A DNA stretch of 64,000 bases from Sphaerosporella brunnea (Eukaryota; Ascomycota; Pezizomycetes; Pezizales; Pyronemataceae): positions 17,494 to 81,493 of the forward strand of contig VXIS01000224.1 of NCBI GenBank assembly GCA_008704415.1, read 5' to 3'. Numbering within the stretch: position 1 is the first letter of the stretch; each line of letters opens with the position of its first letter. The notes below the pieces were generated by a model that was not told the DNA's origin, did not search any database, and saw only the letters and a list, made by a program, of their open reading frames with translations. The position numbers and the translations under genes were made by a program. Of the stretch, positions 2,725-64,000 are shown piece by piece.

Positions 2725-2912
2725 ACACACGCTCCGACAACCACACACATCGCGCTTGGAAACGCCAAGCCGCGACGTGTCGAACCCCGATTGGTTAAAA
2801 GCTCACATCGCGAACACCGAAAAAACTTCACGCTCGCTCGCCGAGCCAAAACGCCGTGCGCAGAGAAGTAAAGGAGCGCGACGCAACTCTACCGCTCGCG
2901 TACCCTCACGAA

Positions 2913-5207
2913 ATGGCTGCTGCCACAGACCACACTATGACGGATGTCATAGCGGAGGTCCCTGACAGTCAGGCCACCCCGGATCAGACCGCTTCTGATC
3001 AAACCCCGCCCCAGACTGGAGGCCCTGAACACGCTCCAACCACAAACGCAAACGACAATAACAACAATGTCCAGATGGAAGAAGCCCACGCCATTACGGC
3101 TACGCCCCCCACCAACGTTCACATCGCCATTTGCGATGTTGTCAACAATGCCCCGAATTTCGTGAGCAACTCAAGCGAGCCGACCACCACCAATGCCACA
3201 AACGCGAAACGACAGAGGTCAGATGAGAGTGAAAACCAGCTCAGTCGCAGTCGATGGGAGCACCACATGACAAACGACCTCGAATACATTGTCAATGCAA
3301 ACACGGGAAAATTTCGGTCTATCACTCACATGTTGGCCGCGGATATGAATAAAGAAACTCGCAAGCTTGCGGAAAAGACAGCCCACACACTGGACGAGAA
3401 ATTTGACCGGATGGCCACCGAAGTAAAAATCGCGATGGATATCCACACCACCAACATTACGACAATGCTAGACCCAGGCAAACGCCACGCGTTAACCGAA
3501 GAAAAGTTCGACGAGAAGATCGACAGGGTGATGCACGTGGTAACTACCCTAGTCCAACAAAACACGACTCTCCTACAGAGAATCGAGAAGCTTGAAGCCG
3601 CTATCGCTGGTCAGGCCAACGACCAGAACGCCCTGAACCCGCCGGGGCCCAACCAACAAATGCCGGCATGCAACAAACCACCCACGATCGGCCTAGGGCC
3701 TGCCCCAAATCATATGGAGACACCACTCGACCTCACCGGCATAGGAAAGAACTGGGGAGACGATGATGAAGACATTGAGATGGTGATGCAAGCATCAGAT
3801 GAACAACATGCCGAAAAGCTGCGGACCATCGCCAACCTAGCCGCGTCCATACATGCATCCACGCCTGGGGCTGGAACTGATCCCACTGCGGCCTCAGCCC
3901 GTCCAACAGGAAATGGGCAAAAGGAAAAGAAGGGAAAGGGAAAAGGCAAAACACCGCAAATCCTACAACGACCTACCAACAATGGAAGGCAACAAACAAT
4001 TGGAACGACAAAGAAGCCAGACAGCGCTAGCAAGGAGAGCACCTTTGCAGCAATCCTCAATAAAGGAAACGACACCACGCGTAATGACGGTTCCTGGACT
4101 ACGGTTAAGGGAAAGATAACGGTCCCTAAAGACCCTAGGATCAAAGCGTTGGTCCGTTTTGATAGGCCCAGGCCTGAAAACGCACGCCGCCTCATCCTCA
4201 ACCGAGACGGCTCCCCGATGCCAAGCATAAACGATTACGGCTTCGCCTTGGCCTTGGTCATTAACCGCGCCATGGGTACGGCCGGTATACCGACGTTCTG
4301 CCGCATAACGAATGTGGCCATCAACCAGAAAGGCACCGTTACAGCCATGTCGAGTCCATACTCTTCCGCCGCCCAGTTGACGGGCTTCGAGGATATAGTC
4401 AGGAAAGCAGCCAGGAGCATCGATCCCGGCATCATCAGCGTCACCCCAAGCCTAGAGTGGGTACGTATCAAAGTACACAGTGTCTCGGTCAGGACGTACT
4501 TCAACAAAATGGACCTCTTAAAGAACGACCTCACGGCAGAGAACGAACAGCTAGAAATCCCACTCGCAATCAGGTGGCTGAAGAACCCTAATGCTGTTCA
4601 ACAACAGTACAGGGAGGGATCCGCAAGGTTCTCGTCAATAGCATTCGCGGTCAAAGATCGAGAGGTTGCCCACCGCCTGATCAAGAACGGAATATACCTG
4701 GGAGGGCTCAGGCTCAAGGCTGAGCTCTATGTCAAGTCCACACCCGAATCCTTCTGCGAAATATGTTCCTTCTGGGGACATGTGGCAGCCACCTGCGGCA
4801 ACTTGGGCATGACCCGATGCGCACACTGCAGCAGCAACAAGCACCTGACAAAGGACCATATATGTAACGTCCCAGGCTGCAAGGAGTGCGAAAAACACCC
4901 TGGGCGCATATGCTCCCACTCCAAAGACTTGCTATGCTGTCCGAACTGCGAAGGCCAACACACGGCACAGAGCCGAACATGCCCCCGAAACCCCCTGAAC
5001 AAAAAGCAACGGTCCTCACCGCCATCATCGCCACCAACGCCTAGGACAGGCAAGGCAACAGACCAAACGGAACAGGCCTCAACGACGCCCGCCATTATAG
5101 AGGCCCCACAATCGGCGACAGTGATGCCAACGACACCGCCCCCGCAATTGCCCACAGCTACCACGCCGCTCCCGACGGACTCGGAGGCCATGGCCCTTGA
5201 GGCCTAA
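2913..5207 (+). CDS. LINE ORF1 protein (Gag-like, zinc knuckles)
   Basis: This 764-residue protein probably binds the LINE RNA and packages it into a ribonucleoprotein. The start at 2913 has a good context (cgaaATGGc); an in-frame ATG at 2856 would add 19 residues. The N-terminal third is low-complexity and Thr/Asn-rich. It is followed by a likely coiled coil at about residues 190-235 and a Lys/Gly-rich basic patch near 350. Cysteine clusters begin at residue 615: the first is a canonical CX2CX4HX4C knuckle, and two further CX2C pairs with histidines follow. The tail is Pro/Thr-rich. The stop codon overlaps the ORF2 start by one base. The family is called from the knuckles and from position 5' of a LINE ORF2; the N-terminal region matches nothing I recognise. 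Confidence 0.9.
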   Translation: MAAATDHTMTDVIAEVPDSQATPDQTASDQTPPQTGGPEHAPTTNANDNNNNVQMEEAHAITATPPTNVHIAICDVVNNAPNFVSNSSEPTTTNATNAKRQRSDESENQLSRSRWEHHMTNDLEYIVNANTGKFRSITHMLAADMNKETRKLAEKTAHTLDEKFDRMATEVKIAMDIHTTNITTMLDPGKRHALTEEKFDEKIDRVMHVVTTLVQQNTTLLQRIEKLEAAIAGQANDQNALNPPGPNQQMPACNKPPTIGLGPAPNHMETPLDLTGIGKNWGDDDEDIEMVMQASDEQHAEKLRTIANLAASIHASTPGAGTDPTAASARPTGNGQKEKKGKGKGKTPQILQRPTNNGRQQTIGTTKKPDSASKESTFAAILNKGNDTTRNDGSWTTVKGKITVPKDPRIKALVRFDRPRPENARRLILNRDGSPMPSINDYGFALALVINRAMGTAGIPTFCRITNVAINQKGTVTAMSSPYSSAAQLTGFEDIVRKAARSIDPGIISVTPSLEWVRIKVHSVSVRTYFNKMDLLKNDLTAENEQLEIPLAIRWLKNPNAVQQQYREGSARFSSIAFAVKDREVAHRLIKNGIYLGGLRLKAELYVKSTPESFCEICSFWGHVAATCGNLGMTRCAHCSSNKHLTKDHICNVPGCKECEKHPGRICSHSKDLLCCPNCEGQHTAQSRTCPRNPLNKKQRSSPPSSPPTPRTGKATDQTEQASTTPAIIEAPQSATVMPTTPPPQLPTATTPLPTDSEAMALEA

Positions 5208-5209
5208 TG
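5205..5209 (+). promoter_or_regulatory. TAATG stop-start overlap between LINE ORF1 and ORF2
   Basis: The ORF1 stop TAA (5205-5207) and the ORF2 start ATG (5207-5209) share one base. This arrangement fits translation of ORF2 by termination and reinitiation from the same RNA, as described for some other LINEs such as silkworm SART1. That it works this way here is inference. Confidence 0.75.
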
Positions 5210-8200
5210 TTAATACAGGCATTACAACTAAACTGCTGGAAGAGGGGTGAAACTCTGACCGCGGTGCTTGAAACGGGAATCGAAAAGAAAGTTGACTTCA
5301 TTTGTATACAAGAGCCACCGACATTTGCAGGATGGAGACACCCAGGGTGGGACTTCATTCGAGGAGGAAGAACGCTGTTTGCTATCAGGAGGGATAGTAT
5401 ATGGCGGGCAAGCGAACGACCAGAACTATCCACAGAAAGCGGAGGTGACGTCCAAGTCTTCGACATTACACACAAAGGAAACCGGGTTCTAAGGATAGCA
5501 AATGTATACGATCAGACCGACGCTGAATCAGGAACGAGACGAGCAAGAAATGCCGACTGGTCGGCCATCATCAACCAACACACCATACTGTGCGGAGACT
5601 TTAACGCACACAGCGAACGATGGAACCCTCTGTGCCCAGTGGAGCATAGAAAGGACTGCAACTTCCTAGAAAACCTGATGGATGAACACGACCTCAAATA
5701 TATAGGGGATGGACGGGAAACTCATCAACAACCCAACCAGGGACGACACAGTGTCATCGACCTAGCCTTCGCATCGGGCGAAATAACAGAACGATGTCAA
5801 GGCGGAGTACTTCTAGACACAGCCCATGCAACAGGGTCAGACCATGAAACCATCTGGTGGCAGGTGGAAACAGACGAGACGTCATCAGAGACAGGAGTAA
5901 CAAGAGGATGGGCAATCACGGAGATGCTCCGCGCGGAGGAGGAAAGCAAAAACTCGACAATCATCCGGGAGCAAGAACCTGTCAAAAAAGACTGGCAGGC
6001 CAGGAGCGCCAACAGAACAACCCTATCCGACAACAGCACAGAACGGGATGTTGAGGAAGAGGCAGTCTGGATCAGGGAACAACTAACGGAGTTGCTCGAC
6101 GCTCATGCACGAAAGGTCACCATTGTCGCTAGGTCCAAACGATGGTGGGGAGAAGAAATAAAGAAGACACGTCAACAATATGGTAGGGTTCGAAGACGAA
6201 GACAACAGGGATTCGCCTCCTTCGAAGAGGAAAAAGAAGCGAGAAATGCCTTCAAATCCCTCCAACAAAAAGCGAAGAAAGAGACCTGGAACAGCTTCCT
6301 TCAAACAGCCAAAGGAGATGAGGTCTGGGAAGTTCTGAGAGCAACCAAAGTGGCAGCGCCCAAACTCATAGGGACCATCCAGGATGAGGAGGGCCGAATA
6401 GCTCAAAACGACCAAGAAAAGAGAAAAATGATGGCAGACATATCCTTCCCGCCCCCCAACCCGTACAACGGGCCAGAAGGAAGGCCAATGCTCTATGCAA
6501 ACGCCTACAAAAAAGTCGACAAAAGCCTCATCAACCGAGCACTACAAGGCCAGGCCAACAACAAGGCACCCGGCATCGATAAGCTGGGTACACCCATCAT
6601 CAAAGCACTTTACAAATGGGACCCCAATAGAGTCACCTCGATTGCGAGGGCCTCTATCCGATTAGGCTACTTCCCTGCTGAATGGAAAGAAGCGAAAGGA
6701 GTATGCATTCAAAAACCGGGAAAAAAGGACTACTCTAAAGCCAAAAGCTATCGCACCATCTCTCTGCTTAATTGTATGGGAAAATTGGTGGAAAAGGTAG
6801 CAGCAATCCTGATTACGGACTCTGTCGAAAGCATGGGGAGACTGCATGAGGGACAGTTCGGAGGAAGACGAAAACGGTCTGCAATAGAAGCAGCGGCTTC
6901 CCTCATCGCACAGGTTGAAGAGGCGTGGGAAGCAAAGAAATTCGTGGGCGCACTGATGATGGACGTTAAAGGGGCCTTTCCTACGGTAAACAGCCGGTGT
7001 CTGGGAAAAAAGATGAGAGACATGAAACTAGACGAGGACCTGGTACGATGGGTTCGCAGCTTTATCGAAGATAGATATGTCACCATCCTGATGAACGGAG
7101 AAGAAGGGGAAAGGATTAGGACGGAAACCGGTCTCCCGCAAGGATCGCCAGTATCGCCAGTTCTCTTCCTGATTTACATCGCCGACCTAGCCAAAAGGGT
7201 GGAACAACAAGTCCCAGGAGTACAAGCGCTCTCTTTTGTGGACGATGTTACATGGGCCGTCACAGGAGACAACGTAGGAACGATCACCAGAAGCCTGGAA
7301 GAGTGTGCTAAAATCACAACCCACTGGGCCTCGGAAAACGCCACCGCATTCGAGATGGAAAAGACTGAAGCAATCTTCTTTTCCCGAAAACATGAACACC
7401 AAAAAAATATCCGACAAAAGATATTCTTAGGTGACGGCCACGAGGTAGCATACAATAAGGCTGCAGTAAGGTGGCTCGGGATTTGGCTCGACAGCAAACT
7501 CACCATGAAGACGCACCATCAAAAGTGGACCAGCAAGGCCAAATCACAGCAGGCTCGCTTCAATAGAGTATGCAGGAAAGCGGGTCTTCCCCCAGGTAGT
7601 GCGGCGAACCTCCAACGGGCGGTGGTGCAATCCATTGCGACCTACGGCATAGAACTCGACGGCATCCGAAAAAAGACGCCCCGGGACGGACAGAGAGTCC
7701 AAGAGCTCCAGCAGGTAATCAACGCACAAGCGAGAGCAACAACGGGCAATTTCAAATCGACCCCAGTCGGAATCTTAATGGCAGAGAGCGGCATGCGCCC
7801 GGCTGAGGCCATAAAGAGAGGCAGAGAAGCAAGGCTTCGAGCAAGAATCCTTGGGAGGCCCCAACGTTTCAGCAACGACGATGAAAGTCTGGTCGAAGAC
7901 ACGCCAGCAGAGCGACTCAGAAAAAGCTGTGCCGTGGCAGTGGGTGCCGTCGAAGTGGAAAGGATTACCCCACGGAAGAACCGGCGAACGAAGGGGATCG
8001 TCATCAAAGAACCGAAAAGAGATGCCCTACGCACAGCTAAAAACTGTGATGAATCGTCATCCCTCACCCTCTGGACCGACGGATCGAGGTTGGAGGATGG
8101 GCGTGTAGGTTCTGGAGTAGCATGGAAGGAAGGGGAAGAGTACGTCGGAAAAAGCTATCACTTAGGTGTTAGCAAAGAAGTATTCGACGCAGAGCTGTTT

Positions 8201-8998
8201 GCGGTGATTGAAGCTGTCAAGCGGGCGAGCAGCATGGAGACAATCACCAACGACAAAGTCACCGTCTTCACAGACTCGCAGGCAACTCTGACACGGATCC
8301 AAGACGACAGAGAGGGCCCCGGACAGATGGCCACACGGTGGCTATATCGATGGGAAGCAACCTTGGCAAGACGGAACGTCCAACTGGAATACAGATGGAC
8401 GCCAGCACACGTCGGGATTAACGGAAACGAGGCCGCCGATCGGTTGGCCAAGAAGGGTGCAGAAGGCGGCGAAATCGCAGACCGGCTCACAAAAGGACGG
8501 GACTCGCCAACAGAATGGATGTCGCTGGCTCATGTCAACCGACTGGCCACGGATGCCGAAACAGAGGTCCAACAAAAATGGATCTCAAACAAGCTCAAGG
8601 ACGACACTCGATACAAGCCGAGAATCGTCAAGGGTAGAATATTGTGGAAGATCCGCAAGGACACTGCAAAAATCCCCAAAAAGAAAGCGCAGGTATATTA
8701 CCAGCTGATGAGCGGCCACGCGGTCACAAACGACTATCTGTTTAAGCGAAAACGGCGCGAGTCCAACCACTGCGATTGGTGCCACAACGACACGCCACAA
8801 ACGAGAAGCCACCTTCTACTGCACTGCAAGAGGTGGAAAGAAGAACGCAAAGCGTTCTTCAAAGAAGTAGAGAGAGTATGGGGGAGAAGAAGGCGGAAGA
8901 GGTTAAAAGATATTTTCGGCGATGACAGGATGACGGCGATTGTGCTGAGATTCCTTGATAGTACTGAAATTGGAAGGAGAACGGGCCAAGCCTCTTAG
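5207..8998 (+). CDS. LINE ORF2: endonuclease, reverse transcriptase, RNase H
   Basis: This 1263-residue polyprotein would nick target DNA and copy the element RNA in place. Residues 1 to about 230 form an AP-endonuclease-like domain, with the QLNCWKR start, ICIQEP, LCGDFNAH and a SDHE motif. The reverse transcriptase spans about 430-720: it carries RTISLLN near 515, a catalytic Asp in MMDVKGAF near 584, LPQGSPVSP, and FVDD near 675. RNase H follows at about 950-1090, with WTDGS near 956, DAEL near 993, TDSQ near 1022 and HVGINGNEAAD near 1067-1077. A CDWC...H...C knuckle near 1188 closes the protein. All catalytic residues I can check are present and the frame is uninterrupted. The RNase H domain groups it with I/Tad-type rather than L1-type LINEs. 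Confidence 0.95.
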   Translation: MLIQALQLNCWKRGETLTAVLETGIEKKVDFICIQEPPTFAGWRHPGWDFIRGGRTLFAIRRDSIWRASERPELSTESGGDVQVFDITHKGNRVLRIANVYDQTDAESGTRRARNADWSAIINQHTILCGDFNAHSERWNPLCPVEHRKDCNFLENLMDEHDLKYIGDGRETHQQPNQGRHSVIDLAFASGEITERCQGGVLLDTAHATGSDHETIWWQVETDETSSETGVTRGWAITEMLRAEEESKNSTIIREQEPVKKDWQARSANRTTLSDNSTERDVEEEAVWIREQLTELLDAHARKVTIVARSKRWWGEEIKKTRQQYGRVRRRRQQGFASFEEEKEARNAFKSLQQKAKKETWNSFLQTAKGDEVWEVLRATKVAAPKLIGTIQDEEGRIAQNDQEKRKMMADISFPPPNPYNGPEGRPMLYANAYKKVDKSLINRALQGQANNKAPGIDKLGTPIIKALYKWDPNRVTSIARASIRLGYFPAEWKEAKGVCIQKPGKKDYSKAKSYRTISLLNCMGKLVEKVAAILITDSVESMGRLHEGQFGGRRKRSAIEAAASLIAQVEEAWEAKKFVGALMMDVKGAFPTVNSRCLGKKMRDMKLDEDLVRWVRSFIEDRYVTILMNGEEGERIRTETGLPQGSPVSPVLFLIYIADLAKRVEQQVPGVQALSFVDDVTWAVTGDNVGTITRSLEECAKITTHWASENATAFEMEKTEAIFFSRKHEHQKNIRQKIFLGDGHEVAYNKAAVRWLGIWLDSKLTMKTHHQKWTSKAKSQQARFNRVCRKAGLPPGSAANLQRAVVQSIATYGIELDGIRKKTPRDGQRVQELQQVINAQARATTGNFKSTPVGILMAESGMRPAEAIKRGREARLRARILGRPQRFSNDDESLVEDTPAERLRKSCAVAVGAVEVERITPRKNRRTKGIVIKEPKRDALRTAKNCDESSSLTLWTDGSRLEDGRVGSGVAWKEGEEYVGKSYHLGVSKEVFDAELFAVIEAVKRASSMETITNDKVTVFTDSQATLTRIQDDREGPGQMATRWLYRWEATLARRNVQLEYRWTPAHVGINGNEAADRLAKKGAEGGEIADRLTKGRDSPTEWMSLAHVNRLATDAETEVQQKWISNKLKDDTRYKPRIVKGRILWKIRKDTAKIPKKKAQVYYQLMSGHAVTNDYLFKRKRRESNHCDWCHNDTPQTRSHLLLHCKRWKEERKAFFKEVERVWGRRRRKRLKDIFGDDRMTAIVLRFLDSTEIGRRTGQAS

Positions 8999-32340: not shown

Positions 32341-35277
32341 ATGCAGCAGCGCGAACGTCGTACGCTGTCTGTGCCGTCCATTGTGCCGTCCATTGCGTAT
32401 GAAGACGTGGACCAGCAGCAAGACCTGGAGATGACACAGCGCCAGCAGCAGCAGCAGCAGCAGCAGCACGGCTTCCTGGGGACGCCACCGCCGAATCAAG
32501 CCCTGGGTGGTGGTGGTGTTGGGGCTGGAGGCGGAGGCCTTGGCGTTGGAGTCGGCGTGGGAGCAGGAGCAGCAGGCGGAGGAGCAGCAGGCGGAGCAGG
32601 CGGCGGAGCAGGCGGCGGAGCAGGCGGCGGAGCAGGCGTGGCGCCAGGTGCAACGTCGGGGTGGCCTCCGCACCCCCCTCAGACTCAAGCACTGGGCCAT
32701 GGCCAGATGGCGACTCTTGCAAAACCCACCGCTCACATGGCGAGATCCAGATCAGCGTCGACGTCGTCACTGTCTGCGCCGACGGGCCCCACTCCGAGCC
32801 CCCAGAAAAAGAAGATAGTCACCGCCTGTCAGAGGTGCAGAACCCGCAAGATCCGCTGTGACGGAGCCCTGCCCGCATGCCGCAGCTGCGTCAAGGCTGG
32901 CGTCGAGTGTATCGAGGTGGACAGGACGGGCGACCACAACATGCCTCGAAGGTCAGCCCCCACCCCCCTCCCCCGTTCAATCGGAAGCCTGCCGAAGCGT
33001 CGGCGTTCTGCTGCTGCTACCCGCCGCCAGACCTCAGTGATCGGTTGTGATGCCCCCGATAGCTGACCCGCGTGTTGCAGTCATGTCTTGGAGCTCGAAA
33101 ACAGAATCAAATGGCTCGAAGAAATCGTGCGCTCAAGATGTCCAGACGTTGCCCTGTCTGCGGGCCCCCCCGTGGAGCTCAGATCGAGACCGGCACCGCC
33201 TGCGATACGCATAGTCACAACGGGCCCAGATTTCAACCAACCTCAACCGCTAAGCTCAGCATCATCGCCAGTGTTTCCGCACTCGCCGGCGTCGACGTGT
33301 GCTACCCCCGTGTCGTTCGACTTTTCGTCGCCTGGGGTGTCGCCGGGATACCTGCAGCCCATGAGCCCGTTCACCTTCTCTGATGTTGGCCCTTCGCCTG
33401 CTGCGTCTCCCGGACCGTCAAGTCCGCTGCTGTTGGCCCAGGACACGCTGCCACATGAGGTGGGGCTTCTGTCTCTGGCAGCCTCCGAAGAACCAAAATA
33501 TCTCGGCGCCTCGTCGGGAGTCAACTTCGCCCGTATGGTCTTTGCGGACGCCAAAGACACAGATCTGTTGCACTCCGGCAACGACGTCATGCAGGACGCG
33601 AAGCAGCACATCCCAAGCTCAGCCGCCGAGCCAGCCCAGCTTCCGCCTTTGGATCATTGCATGGCATTGAAAAAGGCCTACTTCGAAACCGTTCACCTAC
33701 AGTATCCGTTCCTCCACCAGCCGACTTTCGACGGGTACGTGCAGGCAGTCTATCATAGGGATACGCAAAGGTTGCCAGGATCTTCATTTACCACCGCCCA
33801 GCTGCAAATGTTTCTTGTTATGTCCATTGGCGCGCACATATTATCGACACGGGCCCAGGGTCAGGATTTGAACAGCGAGGGTTACTATGCTGCAGCATTG
33901 CGACTCGCCGACGATGTCTCTTTGACGGGCAGCCTTCTAGGTGCTCAGATATCGTTGCTCCTGGCCATGCGCAGCTTGTATGCTACCGGTGGTTGGAACG
34001 TGTGGTATCTTAATGCCATCATCATGGCGACCTGCATCGACTTGGGTCTGCAACGAAAATGCCAGCCGATAGGAGGCGATCAGAGCACAGTAGCTATGAA
34101 GCGTCGCGTATTCTGGTGTGCATATGCACTTGACCGCAATCTGGGCATCGCCCTGGGACGGCCTTGCTCGATTAGAGATGAGTGCTTTGATGTGGAATTA
34201 CCGGTGGACACGGACAATGACGATGAGCTCCCACATGGACCGGCGATCCCACAATCGACCAACGCTTCGAGAGCCACTTTCAGCAATTCAATATCTATAT
34301 TGAGGATAACAAAGCTCATGTCGAGCATAAAAACTATTCTGTATCGAATCGCACCTCCCGCCAGCTCTTTGAGCCTCGACCTACCCGATTGGCAGATGAA
34401 GATTTATCAGCAGTTGCACGAGCTGCAGGAGCAAGTACGATCCTCCCGTGGCGGGGTGCGACGCAATTCTGGTTCATCACCACAAGCCACCGTGGGACAG
34501 CTTGTGGAGCTGAAAATCCACGAAGCTATCCAGCTTCTTTTCCGCCCTTCTCCTGTATTCCGACGCCCTACCGCACAGTGTTTGAGGCTGTGCTTCGACT
34601 CAGCTATCGAGACTATCCGGATATACAACCTGCCGAAACGATATAAGGAGCCCCCGTATCCTTACACACGTCTGACTGAGCATTCGGTCTTCCTTTCGGG
34701 TCTCACAATGCTATATTGCCACCGCCACTGCCCAGAAGTGCGTCAACTTGCCAGCAATGAGGTCCTTGCCGAGGATATCCGGTCATGCTCGAACCTGCTG
34801 GCGGATTTGGCCCAGCTGTGGCCAACGGCTCAGAAGTCGAAGGCCAAATTCGACGCCGTAGCACAGTCAACTTTGGCGTTCTCCTCTGCTGTCGCATCAT
34901 CACGCATGCTCTCGCCACATGATGGCGCACGACGCGCTTCTGGAAGCTCTATCCGATCTTTTGCCGAGAGCCAGACACTGGAAGTCCCATCAGTACCAAC
35001 ACTGGGCTCATCTCCTTCGTCTCACACCGCGGTTTCGGCTTGGTACGGCACACCAGATGTGGGCATTCCCTCTGGCACCCAAGACGCGGCGGATCTTGGT
35101 TGGAGTATCCCCTGGGAGGATATGTCCATATCGCAGGAGGACATCATGATCAGTGGTATGGAAGCCATGCCAACAGAAATGGAAAGCATAGGAATGCTAG
35201 CGGACTTGATGGGCGAGGATACGACAATGTGGGGGATGGACGACCCGCCGCCACAGCAACATCCACCGCCTAGGTGA
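32341..35277 (+). CDS. Zn2Cys6 fungal transcription factor
   Basis: A predicted 935-residue nuclear DNA-binding regulator from exons 32341-32951 and 33081-35277; the 129-nt intron (GTCAGC...TTGCAG) follows two bases of a codon. The N-terminus has a Gln run (about 35-42) and a long Gly/Ala/Val low-complexity segment (about 56-104). The zinc cluster lies at residues 163-190, with six cysteines spaced CX2CX6CX6CX2CX6C and the basic RTRKIRC loop. A short leucine-rich heptad stretch just after it (LELENRIKWLEEIV) would mediate dimerisation. The fungal-specific middle domain begins near 395 with the FLHQPTF motif. The C-terminal 60 residues are acidic and Met-rich, as in activation domains. The intron separates the DNA-binding and dimerisation parts. 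Target genes are unknown. Confidence 0.92.
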
Positions 35278-54918: not shown

Positions 54919-55075
54919 TGTTGCGATGGTGTCTGTGAACCCTTACGTCGCGTAAAGAGCGATAGGGGTCACGGAAAGCGTAAGAAGCTGTGAAGGTGAA
55001 GAAGTGTATTGTAAAGATGATGAGCCAACTCTCTGTCTCCGAGCAACTTTATCTAACACCCCCTGTCCACATGTA
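54919..55075 (-). repeat. 3' LTR of the gypsy element, distal part
   Basis: This part runs from the TA shared with the inserted pogo element to a probable LTR end ...CGCAACA at 54919, which mirrors the TGT start. The end is inferred from the TG...CA rule because the partner LTR is not visible. Confidence 0.6.
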
Positions 55076-55372
55076 GAGCATGTGACATGACCTTCGGACA
55101 CTGCACACTTTCGGACGCCTTGCATTAGTGCATGCAGCCGAGGCGACGACGACGATATCTCAAGATATCTCGACAACCAGAAGTCCAATTGATACCAAAC
55201 TTGAAACAGAGCATCCTGAGATAGTAGAGAACAAAAGAGAATCGTCAAAAATTAAGAAACCCTATAGCGAGCCCAGCGCCGAGCCCAGCTCCATAAGTAA
55301 CCCGCTCCCAACTACCCTACCCACTGCCGAGCCTTTCGGGTCCTCAAAGGCCTACTACTGCCAGCCAGACTT
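55076..55372 (+). repeat. Left TIR of the pogo-like element
   Basis: Inverted partner of about 57392-57701. Its inner part is an antisense copy of the last coding exon of the transposase. Confidence 0.85.
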
Positions 55373-55560
55373 GTCTGCCGGTCCTTTTCTTCGTCCCTAG
55401 TGGGCTCAGGTTCAGCAGGTTGAGCAGGAAGCGCTGTAGTGGCATAATTCTGCAAAGTATACAGACGTGCTTTGTGTAACCTGTGAGGCAGCCCGCTTTT
55501 ATACCCTTCCTACCCCTCTTCACTGCGTCTCCCGCATCCGCACCTCAAACACTGTCAACC

Positions 55561-57448
55561 ATGGGTCGAGTAAAGTCACGCAGTTCTGTCGCTAACGAAA
55601 AAGAAGAGAGGATACGTCGAGCCTTAGATGAAAGAGCTGCTGAGGGCACTGGTCTCCGTGAGCTGGCCCTTAAATATGGAGTCCCCCGTTCAACCTTAAG
55701 TGATCGACTCCGCGGCGGTCAAAGCATGCGTCAGGCTAAGGCTGAAAAGCAGAGCTTGAACCCTTACCAAGAAAAGGCACTGGTGAAGTGGGTAGCGCAG
55801 ATGGAATCTACTGGTTTTCCACCAAGACTGGACCTTTTCAAGGCGGTGGCTGCACACTTAGCAAAACAGCGAGCAGAAGACGAGGGAGATCCCAAGTTGG
55901 CTATACTAGGCCCTACCTGGCTGCGAGGATTTCTCAACCGTCATTCCGAGATTGCGGCGAAGTATGCGGTAACACTGGACATTCCACGGGCGATCGCTGG
56001 TCAACCGGGACCCATACGGCGCTACTTCGAGCTCCTCAGCAAACTCTTTGCTAAATATCGCTTCAAGAAAGAGAATATCTACAATATGGATGAGAAGGGA
56101 TTTATGCTCGGCATGGGCAACAGAGTGAAAGTGATTTCGCACCGCAGGACGAAGCCGCCAAAGGAAACGCAGGACGGATCCCGCGAATGGATCACCGTTG
56201 TTGAAACGTGCGCCGCTGATAATACGATGCTTCCTCCGATGGTTATCTACCAAGGTCAAGCAATCTATCGAGGCTGGTACGATGTCGACGTGAAAATGGA
56301 CCCTCAAACGGTCTTTGCGCGCAGCGACAAAGGGTTCACAACTGATGAGCTTGCCCTGGACTGGCTGCGGGACTACTTTGACCCCTGGACGAGAACCCGC
56401 GCTAACGGCGAACCCCGTCTCCTCCTCCTTGACGGCCACCGCTCGCACTACAGCCTTGACTTTGTACGTTACGCTCGCTACAATAACATCCTTCTGGTTT
56501 CTTATCCTAGTCATTCGACACATTTGTTGCAGCCGCTGGACCTGGTCTTGTTTTCCCCGTTGCAGAAAGCATATAGCACCGCTGTTGCTGACTACACCCG
56601 TACAAGTCGTCGTGGAGTCACTAAGAAAGACTTTTGGACATTCTACTCTTTGGCAATGCAGAAGGCATACACAACGGAAAATATCAAGTCTGCATGGCGA
56701 AAGTCTGGAGTTTTTCCCTTCAACCCCGACGCTGTCCTGCAACCCCTAACCCTTCGCCAAGTCTCCACCAAATCCACCACCCCAAGCATGTTTCTACTCG
56801 ACAAAACACCTGTCAGTCGTCCACAGTTACGCCAGCATATGGCTTATGCCAAAGCTGTGGTCACAGACAAGCTAGGGGACACTAAGGAGGCTGCTTTAGT
56901 GCACAGAGTTTTGGATGTGCTTGGCAATCAGCGCGATGAGTTCAAGGCATCTAAAGACATTTCTATTTTTGAAAAAGAAGAGATTAGAGCGCGCTATGCT
57001 GGTAAGCAGAAAGGGAAAGGGAAAGGGGGTCGCCAAAAGCTCTCAGAGGCGCGGTGTACGGACTGGGCAGAGCTGGAGGCTAGGGAGCTGGAGGCTAGGG
57101 AGCAGGATAGGCTTGCTGAGGAAAAGGAAGCCGAAAAGGCCAAGAAAGCGAAACAGAGGGCGGAGAAGAAGGCAGAGAAGGTAGAGAAGGCAGAAAAGGC
57201 GAAGGCAGAAAAGGCGAAGGCAGAAAAGGCAAAAAAGCCTACTGTGACCCGCCGAAAGGTATGTTTCTCACTCCCGCCTTTTTGACTGGGAGCTTACTAA
57301 TTTTCCTATACAGAAACAAAGCGCTACCTCGCTTCCTGCTCAACCTGAGCCCACTGGAGACAAAGGCAATAACCAGCAGACGCCTCTGGCTGGCAGTAGT
57401 AGGCCTTTGAGGACCCGAAAGCCTAGTAGGAGGCTCGGCAGTGGGTAG
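55561..57448 (+). CDS. Pogo/Fot1-like DDE transposase
   Basis: A predicted 610-residue cut-and-paste transposase from exons 55561-57258 and 57314-57448. The 55-nt intron has GTATGT, a TTACTAAT branch site and TACAG, phase 0. The start MGRVKSR is the first ATG with good context; an in-frame ATG at 55483 is less likely. Residues about 10-57 form a Psq-type helix-turn-helix (LALKYGVPRSTLSDRL), followed by a CENP-B/Tc5-type DNA-binding domain to about 140. The DDE domain has its acids near residues 176 (YNMDEKGF), 291 (LLLDGHRSH) and 327 (QPLDLVLFSPLQ), a spacing of about 35 between the last two. The tail is Lys/Glu/Ala-rich and coiled. Its last codons lie inside the right TIR. No lesion is seen, so the enzyme may be active. 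Confidence 0.93.
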
Positions 57449-57701
57449 GGTAGTTGCGAGCGGGTTGCTTATGGAGCTGGGCTCGGCGCTGGGCTCGGCG
57501 CTGGGCTCGCTATAGGGTTTCTTAATTTTTGACGATTCTCTTTTGTTCTCTACTATCTCAGGATGCTCTGTTTCAAGTTTGGTATCAATTGGACTTCTGG
57601 TTGTCGAGATATCTTGAGATATCGTCGTCGTCGCCTCGGCTGCATGCACTAATGCAAGGCGTCCGAAAGTGTGCAGTGTCCGAAGGTCATGTCACATGCT
57701 C
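57392..57701 (-). repeat. Right TIR of the pogo-like element
   Basis: Overlaps the end of transposase exon 2 (57314-57448) and runs to the outer end GGTCATGTCACATGCTC. Confidence 0.85.
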
Positions 57702-57703
57702 TA

Positions 57704-57735
57704 AACCCTAACCTGCTTAGTCACCGATTGTGACA
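57704..57735 (-). repeat. 3' LTR of the gypsy element, proximal part
   Basis: Starts TGTCACAATCGG on the minus strand directly after the polypurine tract, and breaks off at the TA where the pogo-like element is inserted. The rest of the LTR resumes at 55075. Confidence 0.75.
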
Positions 57736-58012: not shown

Positions 58013-61000
58013 TCATATTCCCTCGCTCATATCCTCATCATTCCGTTTCCCCCGTACTCCCTCCTTTTCGAAAAAATCGCCGAGCTCAGGTGAGGTTGTC
58101 ACGTATCGTGCCCGTGAAAGCGGGTCGACCATGTTCATAAGCTTGCCCGGCCTATATACGATATCCATGTCGTCCAAATACGGTTGAAGTAGCATCCTGT
58201 ATTTATCCAGTCGCTTGGACATCTTCACGTTCGGAGCTGCTTGCAAAACATCTCGCGTGCTCTGGTGGTCCGTGAACACGGTAAACGTGTTGCCCTCAAG
58301 GTATAAGGATAGCTTGTTGATCGCCCAGTAGAGACAGGCTACCTCGCGTTCCGTGGACTCGTAGGACGGTTCGGCGCCGGTGGTTTGACGTGCGATGTAC
58401 AGGATGGGGCGCTCCAGTTTCTCTCCCGGCCGGGGTTTTCTGGTTTCGAATGGCTCCTCAACTCCACGGCGGTCCGTGGGTGCCATCACGTGAGCCTGGG
58501 GCTTGTATGCGCTCAGTGCGTGCCGATCAATGGCGTCCTCCGTAATCCATCGAGCTCTCCTGTTGTCCCCAAACGAGACCTTGTAACGTGTGCCTTGTCG
58601 AGTCTTCCGATGGTCCATTATGGTGTAAGGTGCCTGAATTGCCTCGAGTAAAGCGTTTCGTTCTTCGAAGTCCTTTATCAGATCCAAGGGTGGCGTCAAG
58701 ACCCATGCATCGGAGTTCCGAGCGACTGGATTCTGAGCGTCGCCTCGCCGCAATAGGTATTCTGTCTTACCCGGGTGGCGTCTGGACATCCTGGAGTCCA
58801 CTATCTGTAAGGGCGAAGTGGACGTGTGCCGACCGAATGGGTCCTTGGAAGGGTCCTAGGCCTTCTCGACGTGCTGCACGCTCACCACCGGATGAATATT
58901 CAGGTTTGAAGGGATATCAAGTTCGAGAGCCCTCCCGTCTGATCTGATCCTAGTAACCCGGAAAGGTGGCAGCTTCTGTTGGCTCAGCTTGTTGCGCTTG
59001 ACGATTGACACGGGGTGCAGGTCCAGCCTGATCGAAACGAAATCTCCGACCGCAATGTCCGGTAATCCGGAATGGCGTCGGTCGTAGTAGGCTTTCTGAG
59101 CCGATAGCGCTTTCACAATCGCCTGCTAGGCGTCCTTCAGTCTTGCTGAAACACCGTCCAGAAAGGCCTCAGCATCGTCGTTCCGCTCGTCCTCGTTCTC
59201 CTCTGAAGGTGGCGCGGGTTGTAAAAGCCGGTCCAGGGGCTCCATAGGGTTGGCGTAAAGAAGCTCGTTCGGGCTAAATCCTGTGCCGGGATGCTTCGCC
59301 GTATTGTAAGCAAGCTGGATGAGGCCGAGATACCGATGCCAGTTGTTTTGACGTTGGTTGACATACGCCCGCAGCGCAATTTCCAGGGTTTGGTTTGCAC
59401 GCTCAGCCGCACCGTCCGCTTGAGCGTGATAGGCTGCAGTCTTGCGGTGGTCGAAACCTAGCCTGCTGGCCAGCGACTTCCAGAAGGATTGGATAATACG
59501 TGGATCTCTGTCCGTGATAAACTTAGTCGGGAAGAAGCCTCGCGACACGACGTGCTCAAAAAAGGTGTCGGCTAGCGAGGCTGCCGTGAAGTCGGAGGTC
59601 GTTGGCGCGAAAATCACGGCTTTAGTGAACCGGTCAACTACCGTTACCACTGCATCATACCCGCCACTCCTCGGAAGTCCCACGATCAAGTCCATGTTGA
59701 TCGATTCGAAAGCCTTTGGGATCCGGTGGTACGGTGGGTCGATTGAGAGTAGGGATCCGAAAGGGCGACGTCTGGAGGTCTTATTCTTCCCACACTCGGC
59801 ACAGTGTTTGATGTAGTCGGCGATCACCGTGGACAGGCCGGGCCGATAGTATGTCGTGGTAACGCGATCATATGTCTTATCTACCCCGAAGTGCCCGACG
59901 GCGTCGTGCGCCATCTCCAGGCATCCTCGGATCATGTCCTTCGGCAGGCATACCCTGTCCCCGTAGGTCGTCCTATAGTGAAGCGTCCCGTCGCGCTGCA
60001 GAGTATAACCTATTGTCGAGGGTCCGGGGGTCGGTTTCCCGTGTGCGGCTTTGTGACTTTCGGTCTCGCGATCTTCCGCTATGAGGCTTTGAAGCCGTCG
60101 GTAGACTGTGCGGAACACAGGGTCCGAAATGTAGCTGGCCTCCCAATCCCGTGTAGCCGTTGAATAAAAGTTGTGCATGGAGCTGACCGAGTCCGTTGTG
60201 TTGTCTTTGTAGTCTTCCTCCGTCCATTGCTGGGTCAGAACGGCGCCAAAGGCCTCCGCCAAAGCGTCGGTGTATAGAATGAACGGTCGGCCATCGAATT
60301 TTGGGTGCGCCAGGATGGGTGCCGAGCACAATCGACTCTTGAGCTCGTCAAAAGCAACCTGAGCCTCGTCTGACCAGGTGATGGGTCTCTTGGAGTTGTA
60401 GTCGACGCCGGATTTTGTCGAACGTTTCAGGGCCTCCAGAGGGCGCGCGATCTTGGCGTAGTTCCGTATGAAGCCCCGATAATAGCCAAACATGCCTAAT
60501 AGCCGATAGAGCTCGCCCAGCGTCTGTGGTGCCGCTAGATCGGTAATGGCCTTCACCTTGCCCTGTTGTGTGGATAGTCCGTATCGGCCTAAACCCAACC
60601 CCAGTAAGTTCAACTCTGAGAACCCGAAGCGGCACTTCTCCTTGCTAAACCTCAATCCCACCTCCTTGCACGATGTGAAGAGGCGACGTAGGTGGGTGAC
60701 GTGCTGCTCCCACGTATCGGAAAAAATCAGTACATCATCGATATAGCAGAGTGCTGCTTCCCAACGTAAAGAGCCAAGGATCGTATCCATCATTCGTTGA
60801 AACTGCGCCGGGGCGTTTCGGAGTCCAAAAGGCATACGTTTGAACTGGAAAAGACCCCGGTGGGTTATGAATGCCGTCTTGTGTCGATTGTCCTCCGCAA
60901 TGTCGACCTGGTGGTAGCCTTTGACCGCATCCAGAGCGCTGAAGAACCGTTTACCCGCCAGTGAGGAGAATATGTAGTCCGAGCGCAGCATTGGATAGGA

Positions 61001-62839
61001 GTCCTTGATCGTGATTTTATTGAGCTGCCGAAAATCGACGCAGAAACGCCATTTACTGTTCTGCCATACCAATACAACGGCGGATGCCGTGGCGGAGTCG
61101 GAGCGCTCGATGACGTCCCAGTTGGCCATTTGCCGTAGCGCTTCTTCGATCACCTGGCGTTTCGCAGGGCCGATTGGACGGAGTCTGGCGGCCGGAGGGA
61201 GGTCGCCTGACGTCTTTATGGTGGCGAGCACGCCCTGGACGTGTCCTATCGTTGAGCCATCGCTGAAAACGTCTTCGAACTCCTTCAGAAGTCGCAGCAG
61301 TTCCGAAGCCTGTTCCGAGGTAAGCTCCTCCGACAGTGTCCATGGGCCCTCTCTGTCCTTTGTAGGCGAAGCCCCTTAACGCGTTTTATCGTCTGTAGGC
61401 AGGCATGGGAACGCTACGTCTGCGTCTTCCAGGAGATTCTCCGGGAACCGGTCACCCGCGGTCCGCCTCTCGGCTGTCGACGCAATCAGTCTGATGGTGG
61501 TCTCCGGGAGTGATCGCTTCCGTGGTAATTCCCGGCCGGATGCATCGAACCGGAGTTCCTCATCGAATGCGTATTGATCGCTGTGCGCCGTGGCGCCGGT
61601 GGTGTGGAAAATCGTCATGTCGTGAATTTCCCTACCAAACAATTCTTCCACCGCGACTGTCGTTGGTGCTTTGAGACCAATTGAGGGTCCCATGTGACTG
61701 GGGTGACGAGGTTGGATAAGGTCGTCCCATCGGATGACATGCTGCGTGGTAGTGCCAATTGTACCGAATAGGACCGCCTCTGCGTCGCCAAGAACCTGCC
61801 GACGTTCGATGCGCACTGGGTGTTCCGAGTGGTTTGAGAACATGACAAATTTGGTTTGGCTGTCGATGATGGCCCTCGGCATCTGTGGCGCCGCCGGAAT
61901 CGATAACTCGGCGGTGACATAGGGAGTGAACACGTAGTCAATCCCGTCCATGCAAGCAGTACTCACCGCCACCGGGACCGTCGAACGTCCTGGGACCATG
62001 ACGCGTTTGTTGGAGAACACCTTAACTGCCTGAAACTTTGGTGCTGCCGCGGAGAACAGTGGAAACGTGAGTCCGTGAAAAGAACCGACCATCTTAGTAG
62101 TCATGATGTCGATACCGTAGTCACGAATCGCGTCGAGACCTATCAGGAGACCCGGTCGGAAACCCTCCATCACGTGTAGTTCGACGTCGAACTCTGCGAA
62201 CGCTCGTTCCTTCGTCGTATCGTCACGGCATTCCAGCCAGAGCGGGACCACTGTGAAACCAATCGTTGTAGCTTCGCCTACGCCGGCGATCTTCTTGCTT
62301 GCAGGGAAGATCGATCTGCCTGGGTAGTGTCTCTGTAGGAGGGCGTTGTCGATGATTCCGACGTTGGAGCACACGTCCATCAGTCCTGGGACCTCTTCGG
62401 ACGCTGAGGATGGTGGGGACAGCCGAAATTTCGCGGCCAGTGGTGAACAACGTAGATAACTTTTTCCGTCCCCCGCGAGTTGGTGTGGGCGCTCGAGCCG
62501 CCGAATCTGAACGCGATCAGTTTCACTGTCTGAAGTTGGGGAAGAAGAAAAACTTCCCCTGGTGTCCCCCTGGGTCAGTCCACTCGGGGGTTTACCCCAG
62601 CTGCTGCCAACCACAGGGGAGGTTAAACCGTAGCACTCGCCCATACTGCCTAGGCTCTCACATTCGCTCATACCGCCTTGAGCCTTATCGTCCTCCTTCC
62701 GGTATAGTCCATCCAACCGTATAGGACGCTGTAGAATCGGATTCTCGGACTTCATTCGGGTCTTCTTGCTGCCAGTTCCGAACTTCTCCGGTTTCTGGCA
62801 AGGGTTTTCCATATGGGGGAGGGTAGCCCGATCTACCAA
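58013..62839 (-). pseudogene. Gypsy pol polyprotein: PR, RT, partial RNase H, IN, chromodomain-like, rest of RNase H; three stops
   Basis: One reading frame spans the whole interval, broken by TAA (61376-61378), TAG (59126-59128) and TAG (58856-58858) and by no frameshift. The protease region has DVCSNVG where D-S/T-G is usual, and a second motif LLIGLDAIRDYGIDI. RT starts near 61231, with FCVDFRQLN, the catalytic LDAVKGYHQVD and YIDDVLIF. RNase H begins with ILYTDALAEAFGAVLTQQ (to about 60227) and then stops short; the linker leads straight to the integrase zinc finger (H...H near 59908, HCAEC) and the catalytic core (MDLIVGLP, FITDRDPR, E in DGAAERANQT). Two chromodomain-like blocks follow. 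The missing RNase H part comes last, at about 58414-58112, with STERE, VFTDHQ and MVDPLSR. The three stops are all explicable by C-to-T changes in CAA/CAG. Confidence 0.88.
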
Positions 62840-64000
62840 CCCACGTTGCCATTTCCCTGGTCCTTCGACATGTCTTCCTCCTCAGATTCATGGTGATACA
62901 TTACCTCCTGAGGTTCGGGGGCGCTCTCGTGATGGAAATTGTATGAAGTCAGGTTTCCTGACTCCGTGTGGTGGAGCTGGTCGGCGAGTCCATCGGGTCC
63001 GTCTGTTCCATCCATAGCGTATGTCCGTGATTGCGTTGGAGTACCGCGTGAGCACTCGAAAGAGAAGTGCATCTGGTTCAGAGCACCATTCTTCTCGCAT
63101 ATGTTGCATGGGCGTTTGATAAAAACCGGCTTACCTTGGTAGTTGAGGTAAGACCTCACCATCCTACCCGTCTCCGGATTCAACCTGCTCTGCACCGTAT
63201 TCTTTCGATCCTGAGTGCTCCGGTCTGGCATTTTCCCTTTGTCCTTTTGCACGCGCGGCATGCTAGGTGTGGCATCCGGCTTTGCCCATTGCTGGGCGGG
63301 GAAACGAGTTGTAGGGCGTGGGTTATATTCCGGTTGAACGGTGAAGCCGTCCTGCTGATAGGTCCTTCGAGGCGAGCGGGTCGCGGCCGGCGTGGTCCTG
63401 TCGTAGTCCATCAATTCGCTGACGAATATGTCGATGTTGGACTTCTCCTTGCAGAAACGAACCACTTCTGTATCCATGACCGCCTTGATCTTAAGGATGA
63501 TATTCGCCTCGTCAGATCCTTCGTAGGCGCGCTTCAGGAGTCTGTACTTGCGGATGCCGAAGGCTGCCCAACTGTCCCCGTGGGGTTTTCGATATGAATC
63601 GGCCTCGAATTGCATTACACCGAGATCCGGCTTGAACCGGGTTCGAAGCAGGGTCTTAAATCGGTCCCAACAGCCGTCACCGGTCGTCACGAACAGGTGC
63701 ACCTCGGAGGGCTTGGTCAGGTACCAATCCCTCATTGGATCTCCCACCGCAAAACAGCGATGAAGGATATGCGGGCACACCACCAATTCTCCGAACGAGG
63801 TGACGATGTGGTCAATCTGCGAAATCCATTCTTCTAAATCGTCGCCGAAGACGATTCCCGGCAGGTCTCCAGGATTGAAACGGGGTTTTGCTGGTCCGGA
63901 TCCTCCTGCGGCCGTCGAGGCGGGAGCGACGTAGATCGTGGTAGGACTCAATGAAGTCGTGGGTCCTTGCCATTGGCCGCTGTGTATCAAAGCTCGCTCA
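62833..64000 (-). CDS. Gypsy gag, 5' end outside the window
   Basis: The frame is open to the window edge, so the start codon is not visible. About 388 residues can be read. The central segment (DLEEWISQIDHI through WDRFKTLLRTRFKP) is a retrotransposon Gag/capsid-type helical domain. A basic, Arg/Lys/Gln-rich region follows, with a zinc-knuckle-like motif CX2CX9HX4C (CNICEKNGALNQMHFSFEC). The C-terminus is acidic. The stop (62833-62835) overlaps the pol frame, which is in -1 phase. No internal stop is seen in this part. Confidence 0.85.
   Translation of the reverse strand, partial: ERALIHSGQWQGPTTSLSPTTIYVAPASTAAGGSGPAKPRFNPGDLPGIVFGDDLEEWISQIDHIVTSFGELVVCPHILHRCFAVGDPMRDWYLTKPSEVHLFVTTGDGCWDRFKTLLRTRFKPDLGVMQFEADSYRKPHGDSWAAFGIRKYRLLKRAYEGSDEANIILKIKAVMDTEVVRFCKEKSNIDIFVSELMDYDRTTPAATRSPRRTYQQDGFTVQPEYNPRPTTRFPAQQWAKPDATPSMPRVQKDKGKMPDRSTQDRKNTVQSRLNPETGRMVRSYLNYQGKPVFIKRPCNICEKNGALNQMHFSFECSRGTPTQSRTYAMDGTDGPDGLADQLHHTESGNLTSYNFHHESAPEPQEVMYHHESEEEDMSKDQGNGNVGW
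62851..62857 (-). promoter_or_regulatory. Candidate -1 ribosomal frameshift site GGGAAAT
   Basis: In the gag frame the heptamer is read G_GGA_AAT, the X_XXY_YYZ form of -1 slippery sites. It lies 15 bases before the gag stop codon, and a -1 shift enters the pol frame directly. Eight bases downstream starts a possible stem: GGG/CCC, then an internal loop, then GGTAG/CTACC around ATCGGG. Location, phase and spacing all fit; activity is not shown. Confidence 0.65.

Follow-up and report, generated by a model that had tools for sequence, protein, structure and literature searches.

An RNase H encoded in two pieces

The window, a 64,000-nucleotide stretch of contig VXIS01000224.1 from the ascomycete Sphaerosporella brunnea (assembly GCA_008704415.1), carried the pol of a long terminal repeat (LTR) retrotransposon on the minus strand of its final 6 kb. 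Read along this strand, the pol encoded a presumed protease, a reverse transcriptase (RT), strand 1 of RNase H with the first catalytic Asp, a linker, an integrase, an SH3/chromo-like region and, finally, the remainder of RNase H with the catalytic Glu, Asp and Asp. A first-pass annotation had proposed this split, with the first Asp after RT and the rest behind the integrase, and the open reading frame (ORF) list, the Pfam matches and the Ty3 alignment found the ORFs and motifs where it had placed them. Four open stretches of 501, 749, 89 and 280 residues shared one frame in the window copy, which contained three in-frame stops, a TAA at 61378-61376 and two TAG codons at the ends of the 749- and 89-residue stretches. 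The N-terminal ORF of 501 residues (62881-61376 including the stop, coding 61379..62881, minus strand like all features below unless stated) was presumed by eye to be the aspartic protease. The ORF of 749 residues (61375-59126) contained RT, RNase H strand 1, the linker and the integrase, the ORF of 89 residues (59125-58856) was SH3-like, and the ORF of 280 residues (58855-58013), referred to as the tail, contained a chromo-like part followed by the rest of RNase H, beginning with strand 2.

The RNase H was broken at the same point by two Pfam models, within the hairpin that links strand 1 to strand 2. RT_RNaseH_2 (PF17919) matched with profile positions 1-52 at pol residues 334-386 and with positions 53-100 at tail residues 145-193, both above the cut-off, and RT_RNaseH (PF17917) matched with positions 4-28 in the pol (E 0.025, below the cut-off) and 29-105 in the tail (E 2.9e-16). 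The N-terminal part of the RNase H (N-part; pol residues 331-382, 60230..60385), which comprised the post-RT stretch and strand 1, aligned with Ty3 up to residue 905 of structure 7q5b. The core of strand 1, KFDGRPFILYTDALAEAFGAVLTQ, corresponded to pol residues 359-382, with the first catalytic residue D370 at 60268-60266. The C-terminal part (C-part; tail residues 146-250, 58106..58420) ran from strand 2 to the end of the domain and so comprised strands 2-5 and the helices, was equivalent to Ty3 915-1023, and contained the catalytic residues E171 (58345-58343), D196 (58270-58268) and D244 (58126-58124). The catalytic Glu had been assigned to the STERE motif, which was indeed present in the tail, and the Ty3 alignment narrowed it to the second Glu of that motif. 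In the same alignment, pol 59-382 corresponded to Ty3 590-905 and pol 408-705 to Ty3 1023-1319, so that relative to Ty3 the block of about 906-1022 was displaced to behind the integrase. The four acids, assigned by reading the alignments, matched D358, E401, D426 and D469 of Ty3, which are given as its RNase H active site in excerpts of PMC5371799. The C-part was located 581-604 codons downstream of strand 1. No second whole RNase H was found by Pfam, with no PF00075 match in the window or in the sister copies L023, L025 and L033, and the single RNase H lay in two complementary parts. A captured extra RNase H was rejected because the two parts complement each other in Pfam.

The flanking domains were placed with the same tools. 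RT covered pol residues 60-330 (60386..61198), with a PF00078 match (E 3.8e-32) at residues 107-260 and alignment to Ty3 RT. The linker (pol residues 383-476, 59948..60229) began with a variable stretch and continued with a pre-integrase segment, located in Ty3 after RNase H (Ty3 1023 onward, equivalent to residue 408 onward). Its length had been put at 107 residues, a value that depends on the starting point; 95 residues were counted between strand 1, which ends at residue 382, and the zinc finger, whose Pfam match begins at residue 478. The integrase, with its H2C2 zinc finger and rve core, occupied pol residues 477-722 (59210..59947) and was recognized by PF17921 (E 1.2e-15), by PF00665 below the cut-off (E 1.4e-5), and by alignment to Ty3 integrase. 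The SH3-like C-terminal region of the integrase covered 89 residues (58859..59125; PF24626, E 1.8e-5, below the cut-off), and the chromo-like region, tail residues 1-118 (58502..58855), was named by eye.

Sister copies, recent insertion and conservation

The genome (50.6 Mb, 640 contigs) was searched with the pol and tail pieces as queries, and the pieces were then placed in 20 stretches. The locus counts given here are lower bounds, as the search scores the best candidates only. The order RT, strand 1, integrase, SH3-like region and RNase H remainder was found in 13/13 loci that covered both RT and the remainder (L023-L034 and L041, the window included), on different contigs. No sister with a contiguous RNase H was seen among the examined loci of the genome. 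Three further loci had no RT in the stretch examined. Two of them, L035 and L036, showed the SH3-like region followed by the C-part, L036 being a fragment of a split element that consisted of the tail alone. The third, the decayed locus L050 (contig C259, 15901-17200), contained the integrase, the SH3-like region and the C-part in the split order, with 58% identity in the SH3-like region and 47% in the C-part, and possibly represents a third lineage of split elements. The SH3-like region was 82-92% identical in L023-L029, less so in L030, L031 and L034, and 38% identical in L033 on contig C636. Decay aside, C636 was the most distant of the 13 loci, with identities of 52% in RT, 40% in the integrase and 40% in the RNase H remainder; it had an open frame of 1556 residues with a Pfam Chromo domain (PF00385, E 1.2e-9) between the integrase and the remainder, and a stop codon lay within the remainder.

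These sister copies bear on the objection that the window copy alone, or its assembly, was rearranged. In favour of this objection, the window copy sits at the end of a contig, carries three in-frame stops and has an LTR that is interrupted. However, 13/13 loci on different contigs shared the order, and the six copies with both LTRs had different flanks and target-site duplications, which excluded an assembly error or a one-copy rearrangement and left this explanation next to no probability. A contiguous RNase H in sister copies, or a misassembly, had been named beforehand as a result that would refute descent of this order from a functional ancestor, and neither was found.

Recent insertion was evident from the ends of the elements. 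TG...CA LTR ends and a target-site duplication were present in 6/6 sister copies with both LTRs; the duplication had 5 bases in each, and that of C125 lay within a run of C. The two LTRs were identical at 177/177, 167/167, 178/178, 182/182, 186/187 and 175/176 positions. These six copies are young insertions of lines long separated. Three copies (C256, C213 and C125) had a single uninterrupted frame running from the protease through the whole of RNase H. Behind the 5' LTR, a presumed primer site, TGGCGTCAAGGACTCGTG, was located at 590-607 of L024 and 198-215 of L025; its exact 15-base complement had six matches in the genome, four of them in elements of this family and the others in C127 and C239. 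For the window copy, blastn against the LTRs of the sister copies recovered a single LTR, the 3' one, in two parts at 57700..57735 and 54934..55074, the second cut off by a nested DNA transposon. The inverted ends of this transposon (window 55074-57703) aligned over about 385 bases with 89% identity, and its transposase ORF (55480-57285, plus strand, 601 residues) matched DDE_1/HTH_Tnp_Tc5.

Both pieces of RNase H are under strong purifying selection and conserved like RT and the integrase. The pooled proportion of nonsynonymous differences (pN) was 0.088 in RT, 0.090 in the N-part, 0.092 in the integrase and 0.077 in the C-part, compared with 0.243 in the linker and 0.199 in the chromo-like region. 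L031, L033 and L034 were left out of this calculation, and copies matching less than 85% of a segment were dropped (L032 in three segments and L030 in one). The synonymous counterpart (pS) was saturated at 0.75-0.82 between copies (8-10 copies by segment), and pN was therefore reported instead of the ratio of nonsynonymous to synonymous rates (dN/dS); pooled dN/dS was undefined, and a pairwise ratio was obtainable for only 6-20 pairs per segment. Since the LTR pairs are young, the synonymous sites saturated and the pieces conserved, the split has persisted in mobile elements for a long time. The earlier proposal of a functional ancestor with this order was thus supported by the 13/13 loci, the young LTR pairs and duplications (6/6), the three unbroken frames and the selection on both pieces.

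Conservation changed sharply at the cuts. In pairwise comparisons of eight copies, identity fell at the first cut from 0.945 (residues 361-382) to 0.458 (residues 383-405), and at the second cut it was 0.594 directly before the C-part, 0.86-0.93 inside and 0.39 after. Strand 1 with its Asp was the best conserved stretch measured. These cuts were also searched for signs that the pieces are joined at the level of RNA, with the linker, integrase and chromo region spliced out to give RT-RNase H and the unspliced RNA giving the integrase. Such splicing would make the split harmless, but no invariant AG was present within 150 bases before the C-part (ten copies; invariant sites only), and the only invariant GT near the first cut lay in a Val codon of strand 1 and was followed by differing bases. 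The stretch between the cuts was a multiple of three in 7/10 copies, as needed for translation. This route was considered very improbable.

The catalytic acids were retained almost throughout, D370 in 12/13 loci, E171 in 14/15, D196 in 13/15 and D244 in 15/15, and the only loci with losses were L031 and L034, both of them decayed. This conservation makes it improbable that RNase H function has been lost. In the event of such a loss, a host enzyme would substitute, and the pieces would have become structural in RT or the integrase, like the tether domain that retroviruses derived from an older RNase H. Tether domains of this kind are known in retroviruses and Odin elements (PMC9040795, in part), but the excerpts of PMC5371799 describe connection subdomains as being without catalytic residues, and those of PMC5348765 describe an RNase H of their own as obligatory for LTR elements and present in all of them. 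We regard this alternative as improbable, somewhat less so than splicing.

The presumed protease ORF had best matches of 60-69% identity in nine sister copies and lower ones in L030, L034 and L033. Where D-S/T-G is usual, the presumed active site read DVCS in three copies (the window, L023 and L025) and DNCA in C636, and no Pfam protease was found in the window (at E 0.1), L023, L025 or L033.

Ordinary relatives and known systems

Outside the split family, the ordinary layout prevailed among the gypsy elements examined. When the RT of C636 was used as the query, the RT matches of the genome formed two groups: C636 itself and 11 split loci (48-52%) came first, and the next 110 matches were at or below 41%; C192 was not among them. 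Five less related gypsy elements (L037, L038, L039, L040 and L042) all had a contiguous RNase H before the integrase, the RNase H match of L038 being stopped at profile position 80 by the query end. In C412, C556, C168, C159 and C184, the RNase H remainder was less than 100 bases from RT. For most of the weaker gypsy matches, the layout could be read only from adjacent match coordinates of RT and RNase H. A scan of viral contigs gave 0 loci, and a scan of prokaryote genome contigs gave two, L048 and L049, of which L048 was an ordinary RT-RNase H-integrase element. The contig of L048, which holds this ordinary Ty3/gypsy element, is filed as bacterial (Aquifex MAG) and is probably eukaryotic contamination.

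The best solved match of RT was Ty3 (E 3.6e-93), making it an RT of Ty3 type. Judged from its sequence, the element is gypsy by RT descent and not by domain order. The order protease-RT-RNase H-integrase with a contiguous RNase H was seen in none of the 13 loci, in all of which RNase H was split across the integrase, and the Ty1/copia order, with the integrase before RT, was not seen either, as the integrase followed RT. Compared with Ty3 of Saccharomyces cerevisiae (7q5b, 4ol8), RT, the RNase H pieces and the integrase aligned over most of their length, whereas the RNase H of Ty3 is contiguous between RT and the integrase and the block of about 906-1022 is here behind the integrase. Fungal chromoviruses, as described in the excerpts of PMC3248453, share the Ty3/gypsy pol and have a chromodomain behind the integrase; in the split family, a Pfam Chromo was found in that position in C636, with none at E 0.1 in the chromo-like region of the window or in L023 and L025. 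In contrast to them, the larger RNase H part of the split family comes after the chromo or chromo-like region, and in the ordinary elements of this genome RNase H precedes the integrase. The same survey mentions ‘complex’ elements with inserted domains, and no split order was seen in its excerpts. Remodelled RNase H architecture in a gypsy-type pol is also known from dual RNase H elements, namely retroviruses, Odin, plant Tat, oomycete Archon and Chronos (PMC9040795 and PMC5348765, in part), of which Chronos likewise has a chromodomain. According to these excerpts they gain a second whole RNase H, whereas one RNase H is here in two complementary pieces. No split RNase H in a retroelement was described among the open-access literature matches listed, and a relative, described or unannotated, may exist in sources beyond these, such as Repbase, much of the subscription literature and further fungal genomes. 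An altered order of the gypsy pol is otherwise represented by Gmr1-like elements, which have a copia-like order with the whole integrase ahead of RT and an intact RNase H.

Proposed assembly of the pieces and probable origin of the split

The continued insertion of copies with the split layout suggests that two distant pieces build one working enzyme. We therefore read the window element as a decayed copy of a mobile, chromovirus-like Ty3/gypsy family with one RNase H encoded in two pieces that would fold jointly and be active, and we gave this reading a probability of about 0.78. Strand 1, bound to RT, would slot into the sheet of the C-part and thereby complete the four-acid site. Strand 1 is the central strand of the RNase H sheet, and the C-part should therefore not form an active enzyme without it. 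Depending on which processing products would carry the pieces, assembly could take place within one uncut chain, between the RT product and the integrase product, or between two polyproteins.

An alternative that concerns the C-part itself is that the region preceding it supplies a substitute for strand 1 and makes it a whole RNase H, with the strand 1 on the RT side being a leftover or a structural part of RT. A FESR-x-P motif just before the C-part (tail residues 136-145, about 58450-58421) was kept in the close copies, as FETR in the window, and the RT_RNaseH_2 match of C135 (L024) began at profile position 20 (tail residue 108 onward) instead of 53. Both observations count against assembly from two distant pieces, and so do several others. 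Structure prediction of the tail alone, without an alignment, reached a predicted local distance difference test (pLDDT) score of only 45. The frame from protease to RNase H was broken, or the locus incomplete, in 10/13 loci, and these copies may therefore have been moved by the proteins of other copies. Stops lay inside or adjoining the C-part in L027, L029 and C636, and the C636 lineage is a single locus. For LTR elements as a whole, excerpts of PMC5348765 describe RNase H as universally found and as following RT in evolution. Finally, the RT tree (19 rows, midpoint-rooted) carried a warning of long branches meeting at the branch between split and ordinary elements, which had all 13 split rows on one side with support 100/99.

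For the substitute strand, however, the conservation of strand 1 and its Asp (0.945), which were also kept in C636, was contrary evidence. C636 had no FESR and no visible counterpart of strand 1 in that region, and the Pfam RT_RNaseH match of the C-part began at profile position 28-29 (window, C256, C636 and C213) or 27 (C135). We therefore considered a substitute strand as unlikely as the loss of RNase H. The FESR-x-P motif may serve as a cleavage site or contribute to the structure.

The RT tree fits a single origin of the split without proving it. A tree of the C-part gave two changes, a count that resulted from labelling L036 as ordinary. Most likely, the split arose once, before the C636 lineage diverged. 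The contiguous form was taken as ancestral because it is found in Ty3 and in the ordinary elements. The block equivalent to Ty3 about 906-1022 would then have moved or, equivalently, the integrase would have dropped into the hairpin between strands 1 and 2.

Assembly of the RNase H from both pieces would have consequences for reverse transcription. In excerpts of PMC5371799, the cutting RNase H and the polymerase of Ty3 RT are on different subunits of a dimer, and mutations of Ty3 integrase lower cDNA synthesis unless integrase is provided fused to RT. With a split enzyme, a dependence of cDNA synthesis on the integrase such as that of Ty3 would turn absolute. A narrower version, which we hold tentatively and at less than even odds, is that there is no RNase H unless the RT product is bound to the integrase-chromo product, each bringing part of the active site. 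RNA degradation in cDNA synthesis would then be gated by the integrase, and an obligate RT-integrase complex would tie reverse transcription to the integration enzyme. The RNase H fold is among the best studied, and the pol would, if the pieces assemble, contain a natural split enzyme inside a polyprotein, with strand 1 about 590 residues from the rest and the arrangement kept while lineages diverged for a long time and copies went on inserting. Such a pol differs from that of other LTR elements, in which RT-RNase H is contiguous, and offers a direct test of the mutual dependence of RT, RNase H and integrase. Classifiers that use domain order may misfile such elements as broken or as being without RNase H.

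Elsewhere in the window, positions 2799-8998 contained an ORF of 802 residues without a Pfam match, followed by an ORF of 1265 residues with an endonuclease, RT and RNase H, which is probably a non-LTR retrotransposon. A Fungal_trans domain was encoded at 33067-35274.

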